A DNA stretch of 21,571 nt from a virus, in IMG/VR virus record IMGVR_UViG_3300043446_000285, positions 1 to 21,571 of that record; one strand, written 5' to 3'. The first letter of the stretch is position 1. Each line of letters opens with the position of its first letter. The notes beneath the pieces are model-generated. The model was not told where the DNA came from and did not search any database. It saw only the letters and a list, made by a program, of their open reading frames with translations. The position numbers were made by a program, and so were the translations under genes. Positions 3,083-21,571 of this stretch are shown in pieces.

Positions 3083-3446
3083 AGATGTAGGCACCACCAA
3101 GAGGAAGAAGCTGACGCCCCGCCTTCGCCTCAAGGTCTGGGAAGACCACAAGGGCGTTTGCGCCTTGTGCAATGGCAAGATTGATGGCGTCCGTGAAAGG
3201 TGGATTGTAGAGCATCTAAGGGCGCTGGAACTGGGCGGCGAAGACACAGAGGCCAATATGGCCCCAGTCCATGAAGTTTGCGCCATGATTAAGACCAGCG
3301 GCTCTACAGGAGATCATGCACGGGCGGCAAAGGCAAAGCGCGCCAAGGCAAAGCATCTGGGCATCAAGAAAAGCAAGAACCCCCTGCCGGGAAGCAAGGG
3401 GTCCAAGTGGAAGCGTAAAATGGATGGAAGTATTGTACCTCGTTAG
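3075..3446 (+). CDS. HNH endonuclease
   Basis: A 123-residue HNH family nuclease. It has a basic N-terminus (K-R-K-K-L-T-P-R-L-R), a first zinc knuckle C-A-L-C (28-31), the metal-binding V-E-H-L-R-A-L-E-L-G-G (43-53) containing the catalytic His, the N-M-A-P-V-H-E-V-C segment with Asn59 and His64, and then the typical A-A-K-A-K-R-A-K-A-K-H-L-G basic helix. The tail ends K-M-D-G-S-I-V-P-R, as in many stand-alone phage HNH proteins. Such enzymes nick DNA and often help terminase or recombination; here the gene closes the recombination cluster. The ATG overlaps the end of the putative nuclease by 8 bases. Its TAG stop overlaps the TAA stop of the convergent tail gene, leaving no room for an intergenic terminator. 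Confidence 0.85.
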   Translation: MTEDVGTTKRKKLTPRLRLKVWEDHKGVCALCNGKIDGVRERWIVEHLRALELGGEDTEANMAPVHEVCAMIKTSGSTGDHARAAKAKRAKAKHLGIKKSKNPLPGSKGSKWKRKMDGSIVPR

Positions 3447-4780
3447 TACAGGATAACCAGCCTTCCATCTCCGCCATCATTGGCCGAATCTCCACCAGCA
3501 CCACCCTTTGCAGCATTGTCGCCGTAATTAGGGTCTGTATTCTCAGGCGCGGTTGTTGATCCAGTTTGTCCACTTGTAACATTGTCGGTAAGAGAGTTTA
3601 TAAATGTGCTATTGACATAACTGGTGCCACCGCCGCCACCGCCAGCGCCCTGACCGCCGCTTCCAGTGCCAGAGCCTCCAGAGCCGCCGCCATACCAGCC
3701 AGCACCACCACCGCCACCAAAAGCTTTGCCTGAGCCGCTAGATGTCTCACCGCCGTTGCCTACATCTTCTCCTGTTTCAGTAGCAAAACCATTTGTGCCG
3801 CCGCCGGAGCCAGACGGCGGATTTCCATTGCCGCCGCTCCATTTTGATCCGACAAGGCCAACCGTTGCAGAACTCGTTCCTGCTGAACCACCAGCCTTGA
3901 ATGTGGCCCCACCACCACCTCCACCGGCCCCGGAACCAGAACCAGCATCACCATTGTATGCTACGGTAATACCGCCGCCGCCGCCGCCAGCGCCGCCAGC
4001 AGTGTTAAGAGCGCCACCGCCACCACCACCGGCACCAGCAACAAAGAACGGCGCACCAAGGTCAAAATCAATGTCAGTTGTGCCTACAGTCACATTAGAC
4101 TGTGTAGTACAGTAGAAGTAATCAGTCGCATTGGTGTCACCTTCAACAACGTATGTAGATGACCCGTAATCAATTTCTGCGTTTGAATCAAAATCAGTCG
4201 TTCTTGTGATGACCCAGTTTACCGTTGTATTCCCTACAGTCGTAACTTTATAGATGCCATTACGAGCCTTGTTGGTCTGGTTTTTTACAAGAATCCTGTC
4301 ATTCAAAACGAGTGTCACGCCATCAATTTTTATGGCAGCTTTTGTTGAATTATTTGTAAGTGTAGCGCCTACGCCAGAAGAACCGTTGTCATAAGTCGCA
4401 GAAAGATTTGCAGTTGTCGCCACCCTGCAAGATGCCTTCATGGCGGAAAGATCGCCGGGGAAAACGCCTGTCCAAGTTCCACCGCCGCCGCCATTGTCGC
4501 CAGTTGACGCAGCAGAACCACCGCTACCGACAAAAAATGTCACAGGGATATTATTGTCAGGATCAACGGTGTAGAACCCAGAGACAAACCCACCGGCACC
4601 GCCAGTGCCGCCGTCCGGCGATGAACCGCGCCCACCTCCACCACCGCCAGCCCACGCCTTGAACTGGTAATAGTTGATACCATTACCAAGAGACAAAAGC
4701 TGCCCATCAGTTGTCTTCCCAGAAACTTGAAGGACGCTATTTACTTGAGCAGGAACCACGCAACCCGGTACAGCAGGCAT
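3443..4780 (-). CDS. Glycine-rich tail/receptor-binding protein with inserted fibre module
   Basis: The 445-residue protein is the last late gene. After a short N-terminus (K-A-W-A-G-G-G-G-G-G-R-G) it is dominated by a Gly-rich domain, residues ~30-118 and ~244-445, with runs of four to six glycines and aromatic strands (V-T-F-F-V-G-S-G-G, F-F-V-A-G-A-G-G-G-G-G-G, R-L-V-I-L-Y at the end). Similar Gly-rich domains occur in phage adhesins and in ALK-type receptors. A ~125-residue module (residues ~119-243) is inserted between two strands of it and is shared with the nozzle-like protein. I place the start at ATG 4778-4780, with GAGG 6 bases upstream and 7 bases after the previous stop; a TTG at 4795 is less likely. 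Probable role: distal tail tip or fibre, host recognition. The opposite strand gives Pro-rich shadow frames. Confidence 0.75.
   Translation of the reverse strand: MPAVPGCVVPAQVNSVLQVSGKTTDGQLLSLGNGINYYQFKAWAGGGGGGRGSSPDGGTGGAGGFVSGFYTVDPDNNIPVTFFVGSGGSAASTGDNGGGGGTWTGVFPGDLSAMKASCRVATTANLSATYDNGSSGVGATLTNNSTKAAIKIDGVTLVLNDRILVKNQTNKARNGIYKVTTVGNTTVNWVITRTTDFDSNAEIDYGSSTYVVEGDTNATDYFYCTTQSNVTVGTTDIDFDLGAPFFVAGAGGGGGGALNTAGGAGGGGGGITVAYNGDAGSGSGAGGGGGGATFKAGGSAGTSSATVGLVGSKWSGGNGNPPSGSGGGTNGFATETGEDVGNGGETSSGSGKAFGGGGGAGWYGGGSGGSGTGSGGQGAGGGGGGTSYVNSTFINSLTDNVTSGQTGSTTAPENTDPNYGDNAAKGGAGGDSANDGGDGRLVILY
4050..4424 (-). repeat. Shared fibre module, copy 1 (inside Gly-rich tail protein)
   Basis: This stretch encodes about 125 residues starting VATTANLSATYDNGSSGVGA and ending near F-D-L-G-A-P. 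By eye roughly half the residues match copy 2 at 15030-15404, including S-S-G-V-G-A-T-L-T-N, the I-D-G-V, the R-(I/V)-L-V-K-N-Q-T, N-G-I-Y-x-V-T-T-V-G and T-R-x-T-D-F-D. Similar modules occur in many phage fibre proteins (I recall the I-D-G-V...D-R-V-L-V-K-x-Q-T...N-G-I-Y pattern). It is a protein-level repeat; DNA similarity is patchy. Confidence 0.8.
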
Positions 4781-4787
4781 TTCAACC

Positions 4788-5567
4788 TCACGCAATCAAA
4801 TCGCCAGCAAGAACCCAGCTATTGTTTGTTCTCTTGATGATGGCAGCCTGAGAATAGCGGCCAGTCAGTTTTGTCTTGTTTCCATAACTGTAAATCGTTA
4901 CGCCACTCGCTGCGGCAATTGTTGTCTGACCAACACCAAGAGAAACGATGTTGACAACAGTCCCAATTGGGAACGCAACACTTCCATTCTCAGGAACAGT
5001 CAAGGTATTTGCAGCACTATTGTCCATGCTGACGAGTTTTCCAGAGTCGCCTATAACAAGAGTATACGACGTTCCTGTTTGAGAATTGATACCGGCAACA
5101 TTTGCTCCAATGGGAACACCGTTTGGACCCAAAAATGAACCTACATTTGCTGTAATGTTCCCTTCATTGTCAATTGTAAGCACATTCCTCGGTACTCCGG
5201 CTAGTGTACCAGATTCTCTGGGAGGGGATGTTTGGAACCTGATTGCGCCAGAACCGCCAGTTCCCGTTCCATTGCTGGCCTGAATAACTAAATTAGGGCC
5301 TGTTACATTTGTGCCTGTCTTGGCCGTACCCCTGATAGCAGTAGCTGCGGATGCGGAAGCTGTGCCATCATTGTCACCAAAAATAAGTGTGCCGCTCATT
5401 ACAAGCGTTTTTCCGTTTCCAACCTGAACCCCTACAGAAGTACCAGTTCCGTTGGCGGCAAAAAGATTGTCAATCAGGTAAAAGTCTTGGTTAAGCGTGT
5501 TACCCCAGTCAGTATCAATGTTTGGAGTAGGAAGCGTAAGTCCAAGATTTGTTGTGGTTGTAGGCAT
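4788..5567 (-). CDS. Tail fibre-type protein
   Basis: A 259-residue fibre-like protein. The N-terminus (T-N-L-G-L-T-L-P-T-P-N-I-D-T-D-W-G-N-T-L-N, then F-Y-L-I-D) resembles a pattern common at the start of phage tail fibre proteins. The middle is Gly/Thr/Ser/Asn-rich and beta-structured, with N-V-L-T-I-D-N-E-G-N-I-T typical of repeat-built fibre shafts. The C-terminal ~100 residues (Y-T-L-V-I-G-D-S-G-K-L-V, T-L-T-V-P-E-N, F-P-I-G-T-V-V-N-I, G-V-T-I-Y-S, then W-V-L-A-G-D-L) match a beta domain that often caps phage fibre proteins. AGAGGA lies 7 bases before the ATG, and the upstream stop is 2 bases before the start. It is immediately followed by the Gly-rich tail protein, suggesting the two form the host-recognition end of the virion. 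Receptor unknown. Confidence 0.75.
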   Translation of the reverse strand: MPTTTTNLGLTLPTPNIDTDWGNTLNQDFYLIDNLFAANGTGTSVGVQVGNGKTLVMSGTLIFGDNDGTASASAATAIRGTAKTGTNVTGPNLVIQASNGTGTGGSGAIRFQTSPPRESGTLAGVPRNVLTIDNEGNITANVGSFLGPNGVPIGANVAGINSQTGTSYTLVIGDSGKLVSMDNSAANTLTVPENGSVAFPIGTVVNIVSLGVGQTTIAAASGVTIYSYGNKTKLTGRYSQAAIIKRTNNSWVLAGDLIA

Positions 5568-5569
5568 TG

Positions 5570-7843
5570 TTATGTCCTCTTTGCGAGATGCAGGGCAGTT
5601 GCGATTGCGTCATCAGGGACAGATAGCATGGAAGCTGTCTTCTCTGATAGTAGGGCGCGCACACGCTTGACTTCGGCGCTGATGGCGTTGCCAGTGGTCC
5701 TGCCGCCAGACTTGCGGGCTACGCGGCCACCAGATGATTGCTGTGTCGCTTCTTGCTCATCTTTTCCGTATAAAGAATTATAAATATTACTAGCGGCCTC
5801 TTTTGAAATGCCCCAAGTTCTTGCATAATCATCAGCAGAAGCACTCTTTCCAATTTCTATTGGAAACTGACGTATTGATTGAGCCAAAGCAGCCTGAGCG
5901 CCGCGAGATGCCGGATTATCACGAACCGCTTTTAAGGCTCTGGCAAGATTTCCTATTCTTTTTACAGACGTTGGGCTTGCCATAAATCCTGTAAATGTAC
6001 GCCCACCCATAATGCTCCCAATAGTAGCAATTGGGTTGGCAAGATATGACAATCCAACTTTAATTTCTCCGGCCTGCTCTTCCGAACCAGAGGGAGGAGA
6101 AATTGAACCCATTCTACTTTTTCCAGACGTTACCTTAAATGGACTTGACAATGTATATAGATCATCTAGCGCGCTAGATAAATCATTACCAAAAACTTCT
6201 TGCTTTGCCTTTTTTGATAACGAACCATACTCTTTCATAAAAGATTGCGGATCAAAAACAGAAACATTTGGACTTTCAGGAGACAACTTTGATCCCAAAT
6301 TTGAAATTATATATTTGCGCAATGAATCACGACCCTCTGGGGTCAATACATTCATCATTGTGCGCACTTTGTCGTAAGAACCCCCCTTACCCTCCTTCAT
6401 CGCATCTCTTATTTTTCCAACAAGCTGTTCTGGAGTGCTGGAAAAAACGTAATTAGAGCCGCGCTTTTCAAAGCCGCCAAAAAATGATTGGAAATCATCA
6501 ATTGCGTTAATGTTGTCAAAATACTCGCGGTCTATCCGTTTGTATTCATTATAATTTGATGCACCAGAAAGTTTGGCGGCCTCCTCCATATCATCAGATA
6601 ATGCCTTATAAATAGTCCTGTATTCCGATTCTGAAATGTTGTTGGCGGGATTGCCATACAATTCCCTGAGGTAAGTTCTCAGATTTTTTATTTCGCTGAA
6701 AGATTTACCACGACCTTCTTCCATTGCCCTTAGAATTGGCTTAACTACACCAGATGTTGCATCTCTAACATCTTGCACCCTATTCAGATCAAAAACTCCG
6801 GGGCCAATTGCTGCCCTTTTTTGCACAATATCCGAAATTGCGTTTCCAGAATTTGCCAAAGGAACGCGCTGTGTATCATCAATTACTGAAGATACATTTA
6901 TATCGTATTGATTGTTAAAATATTGTTTTTGAGATTCAACCCAACTTCCAATATCATTTTGAAGTTTTTTGCCAGCATCATATATTGATTGATCTGGCAT
7001 AGTGGGATTTACAAAATCAGAAATTCCACTCCTTGTCTCTTCAAGGCCAGTTCTATATTTTTCTGGAATACCGTGCAAAGGTTCACCAGCCAAAGGTGTT
7101 TTGGCTAATTTCTCTGTAATCCATTTTGCCACGGAACTATCTGTAGTCAAATAACGGGGGATTTCTGGAATGGGAACACCAGAAATTTTCAAACGTCTTG
7201 CCGCTTCTAAAAGATTGGCTCCAGTTTCAGGAATTGTCTTTGCCGCTGGGGATATAACTTTGTCAGCTAATACACCCCCCAAATTACCCAAAAACGCCCC
7301 CTCAACCGCCTTCATTGCTATATCGGAGGCAGTATCTTCCTTTTCAAAAGGCTTTTTGGGTTCATTATAAAACATCATTTGAGCAGCGGCTGGTATTCCG
7401 CGCGCGGCGATATTGTATAGAGTTTGACCCGCTTTTACTTCGGGGGCAATCCAAGTAGCAGGATTTGCAACAGTTCCGGCCAATTCCCAGCCAAAGCTTG
7501 TCATTGGATATTGCTCTTTGCCAGCAATTACCCTTGAACGCTCTTCTTCAAGAAATTGTTTGTATTCTGGTGACTCAAGCACTGATTGATAAGCTGGAAA
7601 CCGCCTTTTGTCCAAAGGCGTTTGGCCTTTTGGAAGCTTTGATTTTAGTTCCTCGTAAGCGCGCTGATAGGCTTGCGCTTCCGGGTAATAGCCCATAGTA
7701 AAGCCCTGCTTTGCAGCAGAAATAGCGGCTTCTGGCAGTGAAACTTCAGGAATTTTAAGTATGTTTGGTTCAGCAGACTCTTCATCCTTTTCATCAAAGG
7801 AAAGTTCAGTGTTGGGATCGTAAGGCTGAATTTCATTTTCCAT
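5570..7843 (-). CDS. Large virion protein, putative internal/ejection protein
   Basis: 757 residues, mostly helical and charged. An acidic N-terminus (1-35) is followed by a segment with A-K-Q-G-F-T-M-G-Y-Y-P-E-A, weakly hydrophobic Ala/Gly/Pro-rich patches (~115-195), a long Lys/Glu/Asp/Asn-rich helical middle (~240-560) and a C-terminal region with S-S-G-G-R-V-A-R-K-S-G-G-R and a short helical tail. There is no enzyme motif I recognise. Its size, its position after the nozzle-like protein and next to the lysozyme-domain protein, and its composition fit the internal virion or ejection proteins of podoviruses, which enter the cell with the DNA. That is inference from context. Its ATG overlaps the upstream stop by one base (TAATG), so the two large proteins are translationally coupled and probably made in similar amounts. 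The middle of the gene looks more AT-rich than its neighbours. Confidence 0.6.
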   Translation of the reverse strand: MENEIQPYDPNTELSFDEKDEESAEPNILKIPEVSLPEAAISAAKQGFTMGYYPEAQAYQRAYEELKSKLPKGQTPLDKRRFPAYQSVLESPEYKQFLEEERSRVIAGKEQYPMTSFGWELAGTVANPATWIAPEVKAGQTLYNIAARGIPAAAQMMFYNEPKKPFEKEDTASDIAMKAVEGAFLGNLGGVLADKVISPAAKTIPETGANLLEAARRLKISGVPIPEIPRYLTTDSSVAKWITEKLAKTPLAGEPLHGIPEKYRTGLEETRSGISDFVNPTMPDQSIYDAGKKLQNDIGSWVESQKQYFNNQYDINVSSVIDDTQRVPLANSGNAISDIVQKRAAIGPGVFDLNRVQDVRDATSGVVKPILRAMEEGRGKSFSEIKNLRTYLRELYGNPANNISESEYRTIYKALSDDMEEAAKLSGASNYNEYKRIDREYFDNINAIDDFQSFFGGFEKRGSNYVFSSTPEQLVGKIRDAMKEGKGGSYDKVRTMMNVLTPEGRDSLRKYIISNLGSKLSPESPNVSVFDPQSFMKEYGSLSKKAKQEVFGNDLSSALDDLYTLSSPFKVTSGKSRMGSISPPSGSEEQAGEIKVGLSYLANPIATIGSIMGGRTFTGFMASPTSVKRIGNLARALKAVRDNPASRGAQAALAQSIRQFPIEIGKSASADDYARTWGISKEAASNIYNSLYGKDEQEATQQSSGGRVARKSGGRTTGNAISAEVKRVRALLSEKTASMLSVPDDAIATALHLAKRT

Positions 7844-10800
7844 TATGGTGTCACCACATCAACATTAGCCGGAACTAGCTTTGACCCGTCAAAGACCCAA
7901 GGACTGTATTCTCCAGTCTTCTTGTTCTGAAGAACATATCTTTTTCCAACAATCAATTTGTTAGCGTTGATACTTCCATCTGAAGTTCTTGGAACATCCA
8001 TCCCTATATAAGCAATGTCCTTAGCCGCCCTCTTTTGGAATTCCAAAGGAGAGTTATTGGGATCAGCGTAGAATTCAGTCAAGAACTCTCCAATATTACT
8101 GGCGTTTGGATTCTGCGCAATCCATTCATTAAATGCTTCCTGACGCGCCAAATCGTGATTTGCGGCACCAATCAACTGCGCCAAAATTGAAGCATTTGCT
8201 TCTGGCTCAAGGCTTGGATTTGGATTGGCCTTAATCATGTTTGACATTTCAAGGTTTGTAAATCTACTCCCAATAGACTTAATTTGATTGAACACAGCGG
8301 TATATTGACCCTTGATAAATTTTTCCATATCTTCAGGACTTGATGATGCATCAAGTCCGCTTGTGTCAATCCCCAAAGCCCTAGCCGCCTTAATCGCCGC
8401 GCCTACCTCTTGCTGCCCCATACCAGTGCGATAATGCTCCATCAAACGGGCAAGCTGAATAAGTTGATTGCGATAAGTTTGAAGCTGCGGCAAAATCTCC
8501 GCTCCTTCAGCCTGTTGTTTTGAAAGAGTCTCTATCCCCTTCACTTGAAGCGGAGAGAGTTCACTTATGTTTGGATTTTTAATAGCCTCAGAACGCGGAA
8601 TCTTGACTTTCTGATTTGTTGCCGGATTAACAACATCAACAAGATCGTATCCAGCTTTAGCTTTTTCCGAGGCTGCTGTTTTAAGACCTTCTTGCTGGGC
8701 AATCAACTCCTGCCAACCAGCATAAACATGCGGCTTTCCGTCTCTGCCTATATAAATGCCGTTGTTATCGGCAAGTTTTTCATTGGCAGACTCAAGTTTT
8801 GCTTTTGCCGCCATCCTTGTAGCGTAAGGAAGATTTGAGTTATTTACTATTCCTGACAAATATGCGGGGTCACTTAACAAATCTGCAAACGGTACATTTT
8901 GTTCGCCTGTATTTGCGGTACTGGCTACACCACCCCCTTCGATGGGCGGAGTAATTGACTCAACGCCAGCGGATTCCGTCCTCTTAGCGGTAGGAGCGGG
9001 AGGGGCGGCAGTAACGGGCGCAGTTGTAGACGAAGATGAAACTTCACCGAGGCTTGGCGGAGCGATGGGTTTTGAAACAGAACTAATGTAAGCTTCAGCG
9101 AATGGCCCCATTTTCTCAACAAGATGCCTCATATTTTCAGGAAGAATACCATTGTTTCTCAGCATAGCATCTTGAAGAATTGGTCCATAGAACTCAGCAT
9201 TTGCCTTTTGAATTTCAAACTGACGCAACTGAGATTCAGTCAATGTTTTCTGAATTTCAGCTTGCTTGCCAGCCATATTCGCCCTTTGGGCCAAAGCATT
9301 GTAGTATGTCTGAGTGCCAACCTTACCCGCCTCACCAAGATTGGTGAAGAAGAACGGAGAGCGACCCGCCATAAGAGCGAAGCTTGCATTCATGACGGCA
9401 GAGCGGGCTTCCGGCGAAAGACGGCGGCCCATGATCTTTTCAATCAAGCTTGGGTTTTCTTCGCTGGCAAATATCTTGCTTAGATCAAGCTTGGAGCGTG
9501 GCTTTTCACCCTTAATTACCAAACCACTTGTTTCAGTTTCAGGAGCGGGAACAGCCGCCAACCCTTCCGCATCGGATGTCACTGGTGCAACTGTTGCACC
9601 AACCCCAGACCGGGTTCCAGAATAGTCTCCAATTGGCCGTGCATTTGCAAGACCGGCTTTTTCATCAAGACCGATTGCTTTTGCCCCATGCCAAGGCCCC
9701 CAGCCACCAGTCGCCGCCTGATCCAAGGCAAATCCCACACTTGGCTTCCAATTACGGGGGTCTTCTGGTGAAAGACCAGTTTTGCCAACCATTTCATTTC
9801 CAAGGCCACCCTCCATGTAAAGTTGGTAGGGTCCATAGCTGCGTTCGCGCTCACCGCGCTTGTTAATGACTTTTGACTGCCACGCTTCACGCGGGTCGCC
9901 AGAAGCCCCCTCAGACCGCCAAACACGTACAGCGACTTCAGGGTCAATGTTGCGCCTTGCAGCTTCCTGCGCGATGTACGCTTCAACTTCTTCATTTGTA
10001 GGATATTTGAACTCTGGCTCTGCGGCTGTTGTCGGCGCTGGAACAGACGCAAGACCTTCATTTGTCGGCACATCTTCCATGCCGCCATCCTGATAATGTT
10101 TGCGCCCCACAACACCGCCAGATGCAGCTTGGGACGGGAAAAATTTTTCCCTGACCGCCAAAACCCCAGCACGCAAAGGATTGTCACTTGTGTTTTCTTC
10201 GTCGTATTTTTCTGCCTCTTTGCTCTTGGGCAAATCAAGTCCAACATCTTTAGCAAGAGCGCGAAGTCCACTCGCCTGACTGCTGGAAATCGGAGAAATA
10301 TCTTTCCAGTCTTCAGATAGACCACTATCTGTCTGAGGTTTTGGCGCTCTGTAGCCAATAGTATCCTGACGGCCCTCAATTTTTCCTTCAGGCACATATG
10401 ATTCTGCATCGCCATACGGATAGTAAGAAACTCCACCGCCAGCTAAACCCTGCCGGTTCATGGCAGGACCGACAACGCCGCCCATGCTGGACATCTTGGC
10501 GGCATCATCTGTTGCGCCCTTGTAGTCTACCATCTTCAGGCCCTTGACCTGAGTCACGGCATTGGGCTTCTGTTCCTCAACTTCCTGAGCCAGAAGACCG
10601 ATTTGCGTCTTAGGATCGCCCTTAAAGTTATAGCGATAGACGGTCTGACCATCATTCAGAGTACCGACTGCCTCAATGTTTTCCTTCATGCGCTTGTCGG
10701 AGTAAATGCTTCCGATAGCGCCGATGCCGCCGAAAATTTGCGACCAGATATTTGGAGCCGGGGCAGTCGTGCTTGAGGTTCCACCAGCACCAGCGCCAAG

Positions 10801-11535
10801 ACCCTGCGCGATATTCGCAAAGAACTGGGCGTTCTGATACGGGTAAGCCTGTTTCTGCATCCACTGCTGATATGCCGCTTGCAGTTCGGCCTGTTTGGTA
10901 GCCTGCTCCTGAGCGCCAGCGGCCATCTGGGCCTGAGCGCCCTGTAGAACAGACCCCTGCGCGCCTGCACCCAATGCGGCCATCTGCTGGCCCATAGCGC
11001 CAAGATTAGCCACTTGCTGCCCAGCAAGCCCCATAGCTTGACCGTAGCCCTGATTGTAAATGTTGGACATGGCCATAGCGTTGCCAAGCTGCTGCTGGCG
11101 GGCCATTTCTGCCTGTGCCACGCCTCCACGGTCGCCACCAAAGGCACCGGCCTGAATGGCCCCAGACTTCAAGCCAGACTGCTGCTGCGCCTGACTTTCC
11201 ATGAGGTTGGAAAATGTCGTATTGGCAACGTCTTTGACGTAGGGGGAGTAGAAACGGTTGTAGAGGCCGGGGGTGATGCCCTTGGCAGCCTGCTCCGTAT
11301 AACCCATACCCTTCTGGATTGCGGGGAGAGCCATGCCTTGGGCGGCATTGATGTTTGCAATACCCTGCTGCTGCGTGGGGGTAAGGCCAGCGACAAGATC
11401 ACCTTTGTATTGCTCATATGGCCTGTTAACAGCATCTCTGGCCATATCCAGAGATTCTTGATAAGCCTTCATAAAGGCTTCTGGTGGCTTGAAACTTGAT
11501 GTAGTTGTATTGCCGCCCTTACCGCCGCCGCCCAC
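7843..11535 (-). CDS. 1230-residue virion protein with mid-chain S74 and lysozyme-like domains
   Basis: Probable multidomain internal/tail virion protein. Residues 1-255 are Gln/Ala/Gly-rich and helical, with a G-A-F-G-G-D-R motif seen in many phage virion proteins. Residues 279-340 are an S74 (endosialidase-type) intramolecular chaperone: S-D-K-R-M-K-E-N-I with Ser279 and Lys284 at the same spacing as the endosialidase Ser911/Lys916 pair, followed by Y-R-Y-N-F-K-G and I-G-L-L-A-Q-E-V-E. Residues ~515-625 resemble a lysozyme/transglycosylase: A-A-R-R-N-I-D-P-E-V-A-V-R-V-W-R-S-E-G (candidate Glu542), S-Y-G-P-Y-Q-L (566-572), then G-G-W-G-P-W-H-G-A. The rest is helical with Pro/Ala linkers, including two near-identical G-L-A-(S/A)-V-P-A-P segments. 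Start: GTG at 11533-11535, 7 bases after AAGGAG; a nearer ATG gives only a few codons. Possible job: local cell-wall opening during DNA entry. Confidence 0.72.
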   Translation of the reverse strand: MGGGGKGGNTTTSSFKPPEAFMKAYQESLDMARDAVNRPYEQYKGDLVAGLTPTQQQGIANINAAQGMALPAIQKGMGYTEQAAKGITPGLYNRFYSPYVKDVANTTFSNLMESQAQQQSGLKSGAIQAGAFGGDRGGVAQAEMARQQQLGNAMAMSNIYNQGYGQAMGLAGQQVANLGAMGQQMAALGAGAQGSVLQGAQAQMAAGAQEQATKQAELQAAYQQWMQKQAYPYQNAQFFANIAQGLGAGAGGTSSTTAPAPNIWSQIFGGIGAIGSIYSDKRMKENIEAVGTLNDGQTVYRYNFKGDPKTQIGLLAQEVEEQKPNAVTQVKGLKMVDYKGATDDAAKMSSMGGVVGPAMNRQGLAGGGVSYYPYGDAESYVPEGKIEGRQDTIGYRAPKPQTDSGLSEDWKDISPISSSQASGLRALAKDVGLDLPKSKEAEKYDEENTSDNPLRAGVLAVREKFFPSQAASGGVVGRKHYQDGGMEDVPTNEGLASVPAPTTAAEPEFKYPTNEEVEAYIAQEAARRNIDPEVAVRVWRSEGASGDPREAWQSKVINKRGERERSYGPYQLYMEGGLGNEMVGKTGLSPEDPRNWKPSVGFALDQAATGGWGPWHGAKAIGLDEKAGLANARPIGDYSGTRSGVGATVAPVTSDAEGLAAVPAPETETSGLVIKGEKPRSKLDLSKIFASEENPSLIEKIMGRRLSPEARSAVMNASFALMAGRSPFFFTNLGEAGKVGTQTYYNALAQRANMAGKQAEIQKTLTESQLRQFEIQKANAEFYGPILQDAMLRNNGILPENMRHLVEKMGPFAEAYISSVSKPIAPPSLGEVSSSSTTAPVTAAPPAPTAKRTESAGVESITPPIEGGGVASTANTGEQNVPFADLLSDPAYLSGIVNNSNLPYATRMAAKAKLESANEKLADNNGIYIGRDGKPHVYAGWQELIAQQEGLKTAASEKAKAGYDLVDVVNPATNQKVKIPRSEAIKNPNISELSPLQVKGIETLSKQQAEGAEILPQLQTYRNQLIQLARLMEHYRTGMGQQEVGAAIKAARALGIDTSGLDASSSPEDMEKFIKGQYTAVFNQIKSIGSRFTNLEMSNMIKANPNPSLEPEANASILAQLIGAANHDLARQEAFNEWIAQNPNASNIGEFLTEFYADPNNSPLEFQKRAAKDIAYIGMDVPRTSDGSINANKLIVGKRYVLQNKKTGEYSPWVFDGSKLVPANVDVVTP

Positions 11536-11546
11536 CGTGCATCTCC

Positions 11547-12047
11547 TTAGTTAATCATTTCCTGTTGGCCCAACATTCCAGTCTTCATGCCATACAGGAA
11601 AAATGCCCCAGCCGGATTGCCAAACTGCCGCTCGTAAAGCCGCGTCTTGGCGTCGGTGCGCGAATTGCTGAGAACACCAATCATGAGGGGCATTTCCAAT
11701 TTCTCGCTTACCTTCTTGGCAAACTCAACCAATTTACGCGCCCTACCCCCCTTGGCCGCGCGGTAGTCAGGATGCACGAAAACGCACATTTCTTCAAGGA
11801 AAGATGCGTCCGAGTACCAATTTTGCGAAATACGCAATATGATCCCGCCTTCCATCCCGTCTCCAGACCCAATAACGCCAACAATCCCGCCATGTAAATA
11901 CAAAAGCGGGCGCAACAAATTGCGGACCTTTTCCTCGTTCATCTGGAAAAGACCATTCTCAACGCCAACCAAGTGCGCCAGCTTGATTATGCTGTCCTCA
12001 TCCTCTGGCGTTGCCGTCCTGACATGGATTTCGTGTGCCTTCTTCAT
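11547..12047 (-). CDS. GNAT-family N-acetyltransferase
   Basis: A 166-residue GNAT fold protein, predicted to move an acetyl group from acetyl-CoA to an amine. It begins with the usual I-H-V-R-T-A-T-P-E-D-E-D-S-I-I-K-L-A first strand and helix, has a central strand pair (G-G-I-V-G-V-I-G, G-G-I-I-L-R-I), then motif A: L-E-E-M-C-V-F-V-H-P-D-Y-R-A-A-K-G-G-R-A-R-K-L-V, which carries the acetyl-CoA pyrophosphate loop, and ends with a Y-E-R-Q-F-G-N-P-A-G-A-F-F-L-Y strand typical of the C-terminal half. GGGGAG lies 6 bases before the ATG. It sits between virion genes with 11-14 base gaps, and its TAA is part of the TAAGGAG signal of the next gene. Substrate unknown; a virion protein or host factor is equally possible. 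Confidence 0.82.
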   Translation of the reverse strand: MKKAHEIHVRTATPEDEDSIIKLAHLVGVENGLFQMNEEKVRNLLRPLLYLHGGIVGVIGSGDGMEGGIILRISQNWYSDASFLEEMCVFVHPDYRAAKGGRARKLVEFAKKVSEKLEMPLMIGVLSNSRTDAKTRLYERQFGNPAGAFFLYGMKTGMLGQQEMIN

Positions 12048-12923: not shown

Positions 12924-15785
12924 TCAGTATTTGCCATCTTCTTGGAACCTGTATCTCATAGCGCCAATGCGCCAGAAACTATTTGTGTCATTGCTTGACA
13001 TGCTGATTGCAATCAAACGCCCGCGCATACGAACACTCAAATATTCTGTGCTGCGAGTCACGTTATACGGGCCATACTGGACAGGCGTATCGCCGGGATA
13101 ATTGGCGACATAAAAAGTAATATCTACGTCAGCATTTTTAGCTTGGTCAACCTGACCCCATTTCATATCAGGCCAAACCTGATCTATGAATGTCATCTTG
13201 TCGCCTTCAGCAATTGAGGCGTAACCAGTTGTGAAACCCGAAGGCAATGCGTAACCATTAGCATTGTTGCTGGTTTCATGCTGATAGACAACAGATGTTG
13301 TGTTTGCTGAGTCAACAGAAGAAAGGGCAGCAGCGCCTATTGGCGGACCCAAAACAGATTGGTCAATCCAAGCAGTACGACCGACAAGAACATTTGAGTT
13401 TTCAGGGTCTTGATAGCCATAATCCCATTGGTTCAATGCGATATTATACTTCACATAGGCATTGATTTCACCAGTTCCCAAGGTTTGATTGGGAAGCGCA
13501 ATGCCAGTCGCCGGGTCAATCTCGTTCAGGTAATGAGCGGGGAAATACCAAGTCACTTCATTGAACTGGGTGTTTGTGGCGCACCTTATGCGGTCTGTGT
13601 ATGGATTGTCATTTTCGTCAACTCCGGGGTACAGATTTTGGAAAATCTGGTCCCACACAGGACAAGGTATTACCTCAACCCCGTTGCCAGAGAATTTGAA
13701 GAACTGTTTCTGTCCCATCCAATACACAACACCGCCCATTTGACCGGCGGCTTTTTGCGAAATAAGGCCAGCATTTGCACCGACTTTGTTAAAACTATAA
13801 ACGTAAGGCTGTCCAATATATGTCATGGACCAGACATCAAGATCAGTCCAAATAAAAGCCTGCTGTGAAGCTTGAATACCGCCAACAATCCTTGACCCTG
13901 TTGGGATGCGATAACTGCCAGCCTGATTGTTTGCCTGAGCATTCCACACCGTGAAATCTTCAAGGTCGCACCATCTCACAAGCAAAGGGTCTTGGATTGT
14001 TCCAAAAGATGAACCATAGGCAATGACTTGCCTCTGAGGCATCGCAACAAATGCTCCCAAGTTGTAGACTGGAGCATTGGGCATATACCCAAGATTTTGA
14101 ACCGCACTTCCAACCGGCTGCCAGTAGTAAATGGCATCGTTTTTCGGGCATCCAATTAGAACTGAACCCCAATTATCAAATGTCCAGTCATCTGCTGTTA
14201 TGGGATCACCGACAACATTGGCCGGTACATATCCGTTTCCATAGCGGCCCTCATTATAAATTCCGCCGCCATAATAATAGTTTGCACCCTGACTTTGCGG
14301 AACAAGGCTTACAAAATACTTTGCGTATATATTACCGTTGTTTTCCCACTGGCTTGCCGCAGAAGTAGCATTCCTGTTGGCGGTTATTTCAAAAGTGCTA
14401 GAGTAATTGCCAATAGCAGGACTATTGACCTTTGTTACAGTGTAAAGACCGCTAAGTGTTATCCCACCAACTGAAGTTGATACTGGAATGTTGAATGTGT
14501 CACCAACAGAAAAACCGTGGTTTACAAGCGTTACCTGAACAACTGGTGATCCGATTGTTGTGTTAAATTTGGGAGGTTCACCACCGAAATTTACGCGAGC
14601 GTTTACTGTACCTCCATTTGAAGATGTTGCAGTAGAAACGCCAGTTTGCGTATATTTTATGGTGTAAGTTGTAACATCACCAGCCACTGTGCCGATGGTA
14701 AAAGAGCCGTTGAATGTTGAATCCGTTACATTGGCAACATAAATGTTTTGCCCGCTATAAAAACTGTGAGGCGTACTGAATTGAACAGTTACTGTTCTGC
14801 TTGATGCGGTAAGGGTTACTGCGCTTATCTTCGCTATTGTTGTCAGTACGCTCGGAACAGCAAACGTAAAAAATCCATCACCCGTAGTCAGGATGTCATA
14901 AGGCCCCTGAAGATTGATGTTCCCAACATTAACTATGGTTGGGAAAAATGCGTATGAAGCGGAAGAAGGCACATCCGTTGTGTAGAATGTGATTGACTCT
15001 GTACCATTTGCCGTAGTGAAGCCGCCACCACGAATAAATCCAATTCCAGTTGTACCAATCGTAACTGCGGTAGCATTGCTACAGTAATAATATCTGTTTT
15101 TGTTTACAGTTCCACTGCTGACAAAAAATGAAGCGCCGCGTTGAATTTCTGCTGTGGTGTCAAAATCCGTTGCTCTGGTAAGAACCCAAGCAGTTGAAAC
15201 TGTTCCTACAGTTGTTACCTCATATATACCGTTTTGCGCCGTAAGACCTGTCTGGTTTTTTACAAGAACTCTGTCATATTGCGCCAAATTCACGCCATCT
15301 ATTGATAGCGGTGCAAAGGTTCCGGTATTGGTCAGCGTGGCACCTACGCCGCTTGAACCGTTGTTATATGATGCCGTCAAAAGTGCTGTGGTAGCTACAA
15401 CAACTGGGTCGTAAATTGTAATGCTTGGAAGCGCAACACCCGTATTTGTGTAGCTTGATTCCTCACTCTGGACAAAATAGTAAGGGGTAACATTAGCTGT
15501 TTCTCCACCTGTCGCATTATAAACAGTTGCGCCATCTGTAGACTCGCTGCCAATGGCTAGATACTTTGTGTATTCAAGATCGCTCCACGCTTTCAATTCA
15601 CGGATTGGATAATCAAATCCGCTAACGATGTAGGATTCCCATCCGCCAAGTTTTTGTACAAGACCAAGGCCGCTTCTGTCGGGGAAAAACCTGACAAGAT
15701 TGCTGTAAGAAACCGCCATCTCATTAAGGGTCGGCGTCTTGGTAGTATCAACGCCCGGAATAAGCTTGAGCGTAGCGTGAGGCAT
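12924..15785 (-). CDS. Nozzle-like tail protein with inserted fibre modules
   Basis: A 953-residue protein placed straight after the tail adaptor. The N-terminal ~105 residues (L-V-R-F-F-P-D-R-S-G-L, K-L-G-G-W-E, A-W-S-D-L-E-Y-T-K-Y-L-A-I-G) and residues ~510-800 (W-T-F-D-N-W-G-S-V-L-I-G, A-P-V-Y-N-L-G, L-V-R-W-C-D-L-E-D-F-T-V-W, F-I-W-T-D-L-D-V-W-S-M, V-Y-W-M-G-Q-K-Q-F-F) have the repeated W/G strand pattern of the P22 gp10 / T7 gp12 type nozzle that closes the short tail. Between them, residues ~127-251 carry the shared fibre module, and ~300-430 hold further beta domains with H-S-F-Y-S-G-Q and H-G-F-S-V-G-D turns. The insertions make it long for a nozzle. Start ATG with GGGGA upstream, 3 bases after the adaptor stop. 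The family name is by pattern only. Confidence 0.65.
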   Translation of the reverse strand: MPHATLKLIPGVDTTKTPTLNEMAVSYSNLVRFFPDRSGLGLVQKLGGWESYIVSGFDYPIRELKAWSDLEYTKYLAIGSESTDGATVYNATGGETANVTPYYFVQSEESSYTNTGVALPSITIYDPVVVATTALLTASYNNGSSGVGATLTNTGTFAPLSIDGVNLAQYDRVLVKNQTGLTAQNGIYEVTTVGTVSTAWVLTRATDFDTTAEIQRGASFFVSSGTVNKNRYYYCSNATAVTIGTTGIGFIRGGGFTTANGTESITFYTTDVPSSASYAFFPTIVNVGNINLQGPYDILTTGDGFFTFAVPSVLTTIAKISAVTLTASSRTVTVQFSTPHSFYSGQNIYVANVTDSTFNGSFTIGTVAGDVTTYTIKYTQTGVSTATSSNGGTVNARVNFGGEPPKFNTTIGSPVVQVTLVNHGFSVGDTFNIPVSTSVGGITLSGLYTVTKVNSPAIGNYSSTFEITANRNATSAASQWENNGNIYAKYFVSLVPQSQGANYYYGGGIYNEGRYGNGYVPANVVGDPITADDWTFDNWGSVLIGCPKNDAIYYWQPVGSAVQNLGYMPNAPVYNLGAFVAMPQRQVIAYGSSFGTIQDPLLVRWCDLEDFTVWNAQANNQAGSYRIPTGSRIVGGIQASQQAFIWTDLDVWSMTYIGQPYVYSFNKVGANAGLISQKAAGQMGGVVYWMGQKQFFKFSGNGVEVIPCPVWDQIFQNLYPGVDENDNPYTDRIRCATNTQFNEVTWYFPAHYLNEIDPATGIALPNQTLGTGEINAYVKYNIALNQWDYGYQDPENSNVLVGRTAWIDQSVLGPPIGAAALSSVDSANTTSVVYQHETSNNANGYALPSGFTTGYASIAEGDKMTFIDQVWPDMKWGQVDQAKNADVDITFYVANYPGDTPVQYGPYNVTRSTEYLSVRMRGRLIAISMSSNDTNSFWRIGAMRYRFQEDGKY
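15030..15404 (-). repeat. Shared fibre module, copy 2 (inside nozzle-like protein)
   Basis: Encodes about residues 127-251 of the nozzle-like protein, starting VATTALLTASYNNGSSGVGA and ending near F-I-R-G-G-G. It aligns end to end with copy 1 (4050-4424) with about half the residues identical and one extra residue after the N-Q-T. It differs mainly in the surface-like stretches (A-L-Y-Q-Y versus L-V-L-N type positions), as expected of a diverged, modular domain. Confidence 0.8.

Positions 15786-19417: not shown

Positions 19418-21571
<2,154 letters not shown>

Follow-up and report, generated by a model that had tools for sequence, protein, structure and literature searches.

A short S74 domain, predicted to be self-cleaving, inside a fused phage ejection protein

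The stretch of viral DNA analyzed here (the window) is 21,571 nt long and comprises positions 1 to 21,571 of IMG/VR virus record IMGVR_UViG_3300043446_000285. One of its minus strand open reading frames (ORFs) encodes a 1230 amino acid (aa) protein with a short S74 domain, or intramolecular chaperone auto-processing (ICA) domain, in the middle of the chain (Table 1). By sequence and by its catalytic dyad the domain is a genuine member of the self-cleaving ICA family, and its host appears from sequence comparisons to be an ejection (internal virion) protein of a short-tailed (podovirus-like) phage and not a fibre. We consider the chances about even that this short ICA module matures the ejection protein by a predicted cut just before Ser279, perhaps gated by assembly.

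The S74 domain and its dyad

An earlier sequence-only reading of the window had proposed an S74 domain from an S-D-x-x-x-K motif with Ser279 and Lys284. Both residues are where it placed them, and the Pfam family PF13884 (Peptidase_S74) matches residues 279–327 over positions 1–57 of its 58-position profile (E-value = 4.1e-7; 30.6 bits, cut-off 22). A profile built from this ejection-type S74 class (A6) was run against PDB sequences and, by sequence alone, matches three structures of proteins known to cleave themselves: 6f45, a long tail fibre subunit (S16 gp37; E-value = 4e-4), 7dc3 of MYRF (E-value = 0.002) and 3gud, the neck appendage of GA-1 (E-value = 0.012). Thus the domain is real, and a chance S-D-x-x-x-K motif is ruled out by the Pfam and PDB matches together.

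The A6 alignment places Ser279 at MYRF position 587, an alanine in 7dc3, and at the first residue of 3gud, whose chain begins at a serine there. The catalytic Ser-Lys dyad of ICA domains is S587/K592 in MYRF and S911/K916 in endoNF. In the ejection-type class, Ser and Lys are both intact in 106/106 non-redundant S74 copies, first and second copies included, and 103 of the 106 have Arg at Ser+3, which is the SD.R.K pattern of MYRF. Ser279, Asp280 and Lys284 are all invariant in an alignment with a mean column identity of 41%.

The S74 core is modeled by AlphaFold2 (AF2) with a predicted local distance difference test (pLDDT) score of 91–95. Matches of approximately S74 length were found in BFVD, e.g. 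the 'Endosialidase chaperone' A0A8S5TG63 (2.2 A over 78 columns). Foldseek and VIA-align listed no solved S74 fold for a 350-residue model, but long helices filled the list and the search is therefore uninformative on S74.

An ejection protein

The ORF has a GTG start, with the ribosome binding site AAGGAG 7 nt upstream at 11543–11548. Residues 1–339 match PHROG 4287, 'DNA ejection protein', over profile positions 1–384 of 392 (E-value = 3.5e-32), and the gene occupies the position of the ejection proteins of phiGT1, phiOH and phiM5. The identity of the protein follows from this whole-length match and the conserved gene order. PHROG 4287 itself consists of the helical part plus S74, i.e. a known protein with S74 at its end. 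The region upstream of S74 is rich in Gln and Ala and is predicted by AF2 to be helical, and composition and model thus agree with the helical region described in the sequence-only reading.

A fibre or spike is ruled out, as there are no fibre features upstream and the ejection family and gene order are found instead. RecA matches that came up are repeated chance matches. Pfam and NCBIfam gave no match for either the lysozyme-like domain or the C-terminal domain; these were found by other means (below and Table 1). Ejection into the host cell is the probable fate of this long chain, which includes a predicted cell-wall-digesting enzyme.

Fusion of neighbouring genes

The cultured phages phiGT1, NYA-2014a, phiOH, RHph_N2, phiM5, ppBeUSDA76-2 and PAE2, as well as EBPR podovirus 2 (EBPR2), have a protein that ends in S74 and is followed directly by the next virion gene, often with an overlap of 1–4 bases. 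The next gene encodes a hydrolase/injection protein in phiGT1, NYA-2014a, phiOH, phiM5 and EBPR2. The order acetyltransferase, S74 protein, hydrolase, injection protein is found in phiGT1, NYA-2014a, phiOH, RHph_N2, EBPR2 and others, and S74 there forms the extreme C-terminus of its protein. In phiM5, gp27, gp28 and gp29 are separate neighbouring genes, each of which matches one part of the window protein, and each carries the GenBank note 'detected in phage particle proteome'. These separate homologues indicate that the window protein is a fusion of two or three neighbouring ejection/virion genes: an S74-ended ejection protein, a hydrolase and a second ejection domain.

The position of S74 in the middle of the protein thus results from gene fusion. 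The sequence-only reading had taken this position as an exception to the C-terminal S74 of fibres and endosialidases. The position itself is confirmed, and 892 residues follow the core where about 890 had been stated, but it is not unique: MYRF is a precedent and about 90 relatives share the layout. In the split relatives S74 is C-terminal. An internal start that would restore two genes was looked for briefly around an in-frame ATG near 10080, and no good ribosome binding site was seen there.

Relatives in uncultured phages

In a first scan of IMG/VR, six relatives served as queries and gave 80 loci (numbered with the prefix L), and all have S74 inside a long ORF, contig ends excepted. Sixty-one of these differ by >15%, and 50 of the 61 are complete, with lengths of 942–2185 aa. 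An assembly artefact as the source of the fusion is ruled out by these 50 complete fused ORFs at <85% identity. In a second scan the N-terminal domain was the only query, which does not bias the result towards S74. It gave 80 ORFs; S74 is present in 61 and absent from 19, a few of the latter being truncated by the locus end. In total, about 90 distinct uncultured phage relatives show the same fused layout, and relatives in both scans rule out a unique architecture. In the phage record collection the fused gene was found only in the uncultured assembly MW202675. The open-access literature searched yielded no paper on S74 in ejection proteins; the phiGT1 paper says little about the internal virion proteins (PMC10386132).

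Second internal S74 copies with an intact dyad are found in L019, L024, L029, L037, L056, L083, L089 and others, each directly after a hydrophobic Gly/Ala-rich segment. There are also fused ORFs that have no S74 (e.g. L291, L246, L253, L303, L312), where the N-terminal domain is followed immediately by a Gly-rich linker of the same kind. A tree of 96 N-terminal domains, made by a quick method and with many forks weakly supported, shows one change between split and fused genes, at least six changes in S74 presence and at least 10 in S74 copy number. The repeated gain or loss of the domain would fit a relic, i.e. a former C-terminal tag left behind as a harmless insert after gene fusion. However, the domain shows no decay, the dyad being intact in all copies, and second copies arise repeatedly; a relic is very improbable.

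A short class of S74 domain with no tail helix

In MYRF the C-terminal alpha4 helices form a trimer, and the trimer is required for cleavage (PMC8326128). As a proxy for alpha4, the longest run free of Gly and Pro was determined within 60 residues downstream of the S74 core, with a run of 28 residues or more as the criterion. Such a run is present in 29/41 fibre-type S74 proteins of bacterial genomes. It is present in 0/61 fused ejection-type proteins, 0/15 second copies and 0/23 split ejection-type proteins. In the window protein the stretch after the S74 core (KGATDDAAKMSSMGGVV...) has a longest run of 11 residues and no alpha4. The tail fibre encoded in the same window serves as a control, as its S74 has the usual coiled-coil tail; it carries Ile at the Asp280 position (S-I-K-Y-K-K). 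Ejection-type S74 is therefore a short class that is without the trimerising tail helix.

The region upstream of Ser279 differs as well. No triple beta-helix typical of ICA proteins is found there; the predicted helical region leads instead into a hydrophobic Gly-rich segment. The hydropathy of this segment is 1.30 against a background 95th percentile of 1.01. Among the other split ejection-type proteins 95% exceed the background 90th percentile at this place, as do all second copies, but the proportion is only 33% among fused first copies and likewise 33% among fibres. The residue that precedes the motif Ser is Phe in 57/88 first copies and is mixed in fibres.

The lysozyme-like domain

The lysozyme-like domain that the sequence-only reading saw downstream of S74, with Glu542 as candidate residue and the motif S-Y-G-P-Y-Q-L (residues 566–572), is borne out. 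Glu542, Ser566 and Gln571 are invariant across 54 sequences of the domain. The AF2 model (pLDDT 87), in which Glu542 comes after helix 28–37, aligns end to end with C-type lysozymes over model residues 6–124. In the lysozyme superfamily the catalytic Glu lies where the second helix ends. Hen lysozyme gives a Z of 7.7 over 102 residues, the highest for the C-type lysozymes, and MltF a Z of 6.2; all 50 matches listed belong to the lysozymes or the lytic transglycosylases. With Foldseek alone the top match was MltE, at a weak E-value of 0.7. The domain is 42–58% identical to domains in phiGT1 gp18, phiOH gp39 and phiM5 gp28. Fold and conserved Glu thus agree with a predicted murein hydrolase.

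The nearest relative, L003, is mostly 60–97% identical over residues 1–510 and 87–90% identical over 691–750, but only 17–27% identical over 511–660, which indicates a different domain there. An SLT-type transglycosylase is present in ct7L0027. Pfam identified six kinds of murein-cleaving domain in 47 relatives (SLT, Phage_lysozyme, Phage_lysozyme2, GH108, Hydrolase_2 and VanY) besides the window type. These comparisons show the hydrolase to be an exchangeable cassette.

A hydrolase of at least six Pfam kinds plus the window type lies downstream of S74 in many relatives, and this arrangement would suit a timer, in which the moment of the cut decides when, during infection, the lysozyme part becomes free. 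This was the model of the sequence-only reading. It is weakened by the lack of alpha4 and by the fused relatives that have no S74. Moreover, the hydrolase is not attached to S74 at all in relatives with separate genes, and known ICA domains cut upon folding or trimerisation, i.e. during assembly and not on an infection signal (PMC8326128, PMC3742443). In T7 gp16 a hydrolase inside an ejected chain works with no such cut (PMC8954989). Since T7 gp16 and the S74-less fused relatives do without the cut, timed release is unlikely to be its main purpose.

Predicted processing

The preferred reading is maturation of the ejection protein by the ICA module. The helical part would oligomerise during head assembly, and Ser279 with Lys284 would then cut the Tyr278-Ser279 bond. 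Since the domain would cut at its own N-terminal edge, the products would be an N-terminal chain of 278 residues, which ends in the hydrophobic Gly-rich segment, and a C-terminal chain of 952 residues, made up of S74 at its start, the lysozyme domain and the C-terminal domain. Each product would be packaged and later ejected, and the hydrolase would make way through the murein for the DNA channel, in the manner of T7 gp16. That the cut also frees the hydrolase would be a side effect of gene fusion and not the general purpose of cutting; split relatives would lose no more than a tail of about 65 residues through the cut.

Several sequence features argue for cutting: the dyad in every copy, the Arg at Ser+3, the alignment of Ser279 with MYRF 587 and the 3gud start, and the hydrophobic residue that usually precedes the Ser. 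Other observations weigh against the reading. The tail helix is absent from the whole class, and it is a guess that the helical part or head assembly would supply the oligomer required for cutting. The AF2 model of the N-terminal part is of low confidence (predicted TM-score 0.36). Seven distinct relatives are fused but have no S74, and the cut is thus dispensable in some lineages. Asp280, a position that is non-catalytic in the published ICA mechanism, is as invariant as Ser279 and Lys284, and several Gly of the domain are too; invariance of the dyad may therefore be partly structural and is no proof of catalysis alone.

Some of these observations favor a domain that folds but does not cut. 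Here the short S74 would be an assembly or chaperone domain that stays in the chain and caps the hydrophobic segment or binds a partner in the head. It has no alpha4 helix and hence no trimer of its own, Asp280 and Gly residues are conserved like the dyad, and S74 is optional among the fused proteins. However, loss of the Ser-Lys pair would be expected now and then in a pure scaffold, and the pair is retained in every copy, recurrent second copies included, along with the Arg at +3. Cleavage also occurs in known ICA domains that share this motif (PMC8326128). A non-cutting domain is a tentative alternative, short of an even chance.

An extended form of the maturation reading is rather doubtful as a whole. 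It describes a self-cleaving ejection polyprotein in which a minimal ICA borrows the oligomer of the helical domain and cuts only in a correctly assembled complex. The cut would expose a hydrophobic Gly-rich C-terminus for membrane insertion and free an exchangeable hydrolase. It would act as an assembly checkpoint of the DNA-ejection machine, and the ICA would be of a form that receives its oligomerisation from outside.

Features of the window and neighbouring genes

Table 1. Features of the fused ejection protein and of the control tail fibre in the window
Feature	Position	Strand	Basis
Fused ejection (internal virion) protein, 1230 aa	7843..11535, stop codon included	(-)	ORF; ribosome binding site; gene position
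N-terminal helical ejection domain, residues 1–263 (with S74 = PHROG 4287)	10747..11535	(-)	PHROG 4287; AF2 all helical, pLDDT 40–87
Hydrophobic Gly-rich segment, residues 262–278, NIWSQIFGGIGAIGSIY, ends at putative cut site Tyr278/Ser279	10702..10752	(-)	hydropathy
Short S74/ICA domain, residues 279–338; Ser279 codon 10699–10701, Lys284 codon 10684–10686	10522..10701	(-)	PF13884; AF2; PDB profile matches; dyad
Gly-rich linker, residues 339–510, GGVV...GG motifs, no alpha4 coiled coil	10006..10521	(-)	longest Gly/Pro-free run 11 residues
Lysozyme-superfamily murein hydrolase domain (predicted), residues 511–642; Glu542 codon 9910–9912; SYGPYQL 9820–9840	9610..10005	(-)	conservation; AF2; fold alignment; homologues
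Conserved block after hydrolase, residues 661–750	9286..9555	(-)	53–90% identical to L003 despite unrelated hydrolases on its left
C-terminal ejection domain, residues 1016–1176, homologous to phiM5 gp29	8008..8490	(-)	iterative hidden Markov model search, E-value = 2.1e-18
Control: second S74 of the window, C-terminus of collagen-like tail fibre (gene 19418–21364), with usual alpha4 coiled-coil tail	19607..19786	(-)	Pfam; Gly/Pro-free run

Directly upstream of the ejection gene lies a GNAT-like acetyltransferase gene (11547–12047, minus strand). The phages phiGT1, phiOH, RHph_N2 and ct7L0027 as well as L003 retain such a gene at this place, and the phiGT1 counterpart is annotated as 'head assembly protein'.

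The next ejection-type protein (5570–7843, minus strand) has a C-terminal stretch of 50 residues that is identical at 46/50 positions to L003:11655-11804, and the remainder shows no significant similarity to its L003 counterpart. The shared end may be a recombination border or a targeting tail. Short motifs of the type GGVVGRKHYQDGG or ARKSGGRT recur in the linker of the fused protein, in the 5570–7843 protein and in relatives (e.g. RHGYATDG).

Two structural proteins (3443–4795 and 12924–15785, both minus strand) share a module of the form ...YNNGSSGVGATLTN...DRVLVKNQT...NGIYEVTTVG.... In the tail-tube-B-like protein the module has matches among PHROG families of head decoration and of tail fibres, which would fit insertion of a mobile decoration domain.

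Comparison with known systems

The closest counterparts in cultured phages are phiGT1 gp17, phiOH gp40 and phiM5 gp27, which share with the window protein the helical N-terminal domain, the hydrophobic segment, the short S74 and the gene position. Their chains, however, continue for only 4–24 residues beyond S74, and the gene that follows encodes the hydrolase. The phages phiGT1, phiOH, phiM5 and RHph_N2 make cleavage by an ejection-type S74 testable in culture. The 1487 aa A0A6J5LD05 of an uncultured Caudovirales phage is a similarly long chain, with a structure and sequence match over residues 1–350 (E-value = 5e-27, 43% identity). Proteins of this type are named 'Intramolecular chaperone auto-processing domain containing protein', an automatic annotation with no function described. 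If the predicted cut occurs, a large group of uncultured phages would make their ejection proteins as self-cleaving fusions.

T7 gp16 is likewise large, internal and ejected, and includes a murein hydrolase (lytic transglycosylase) domain, but its hydrolase is N-terminal and it has no S74. The ICA domains of fibres and spikes (endoNF, S16 gp37, T5 long tail fibre, GA-1 gp12) have the S-D-x-R-x-K motif and the S74 core, and the window domain matches 6f45 and 3gud by sequence. It differs from them in the absence of the alpha4 coiled coil, a shortened alpha1 region, a helical and not beta-helical upstream region, and a position that is not C-terminal. Cleavage here would imply that an ICA can work when its coiled coil is missing.

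MYRF, a membrane transcription factor, is the published precedent for a mid-protein S74/ICA domain. Its dyad positions are equivalent to those of the window protein and a long functional part follows the ICA in both, but MYRF has the alpha4 trimer helix and a beta-helical stalk and carries no hydrolase. If the window protein cuts itself, S74/ICA self-processing would extend from fibres and MYRF to ejected proteins of the DNA channel.

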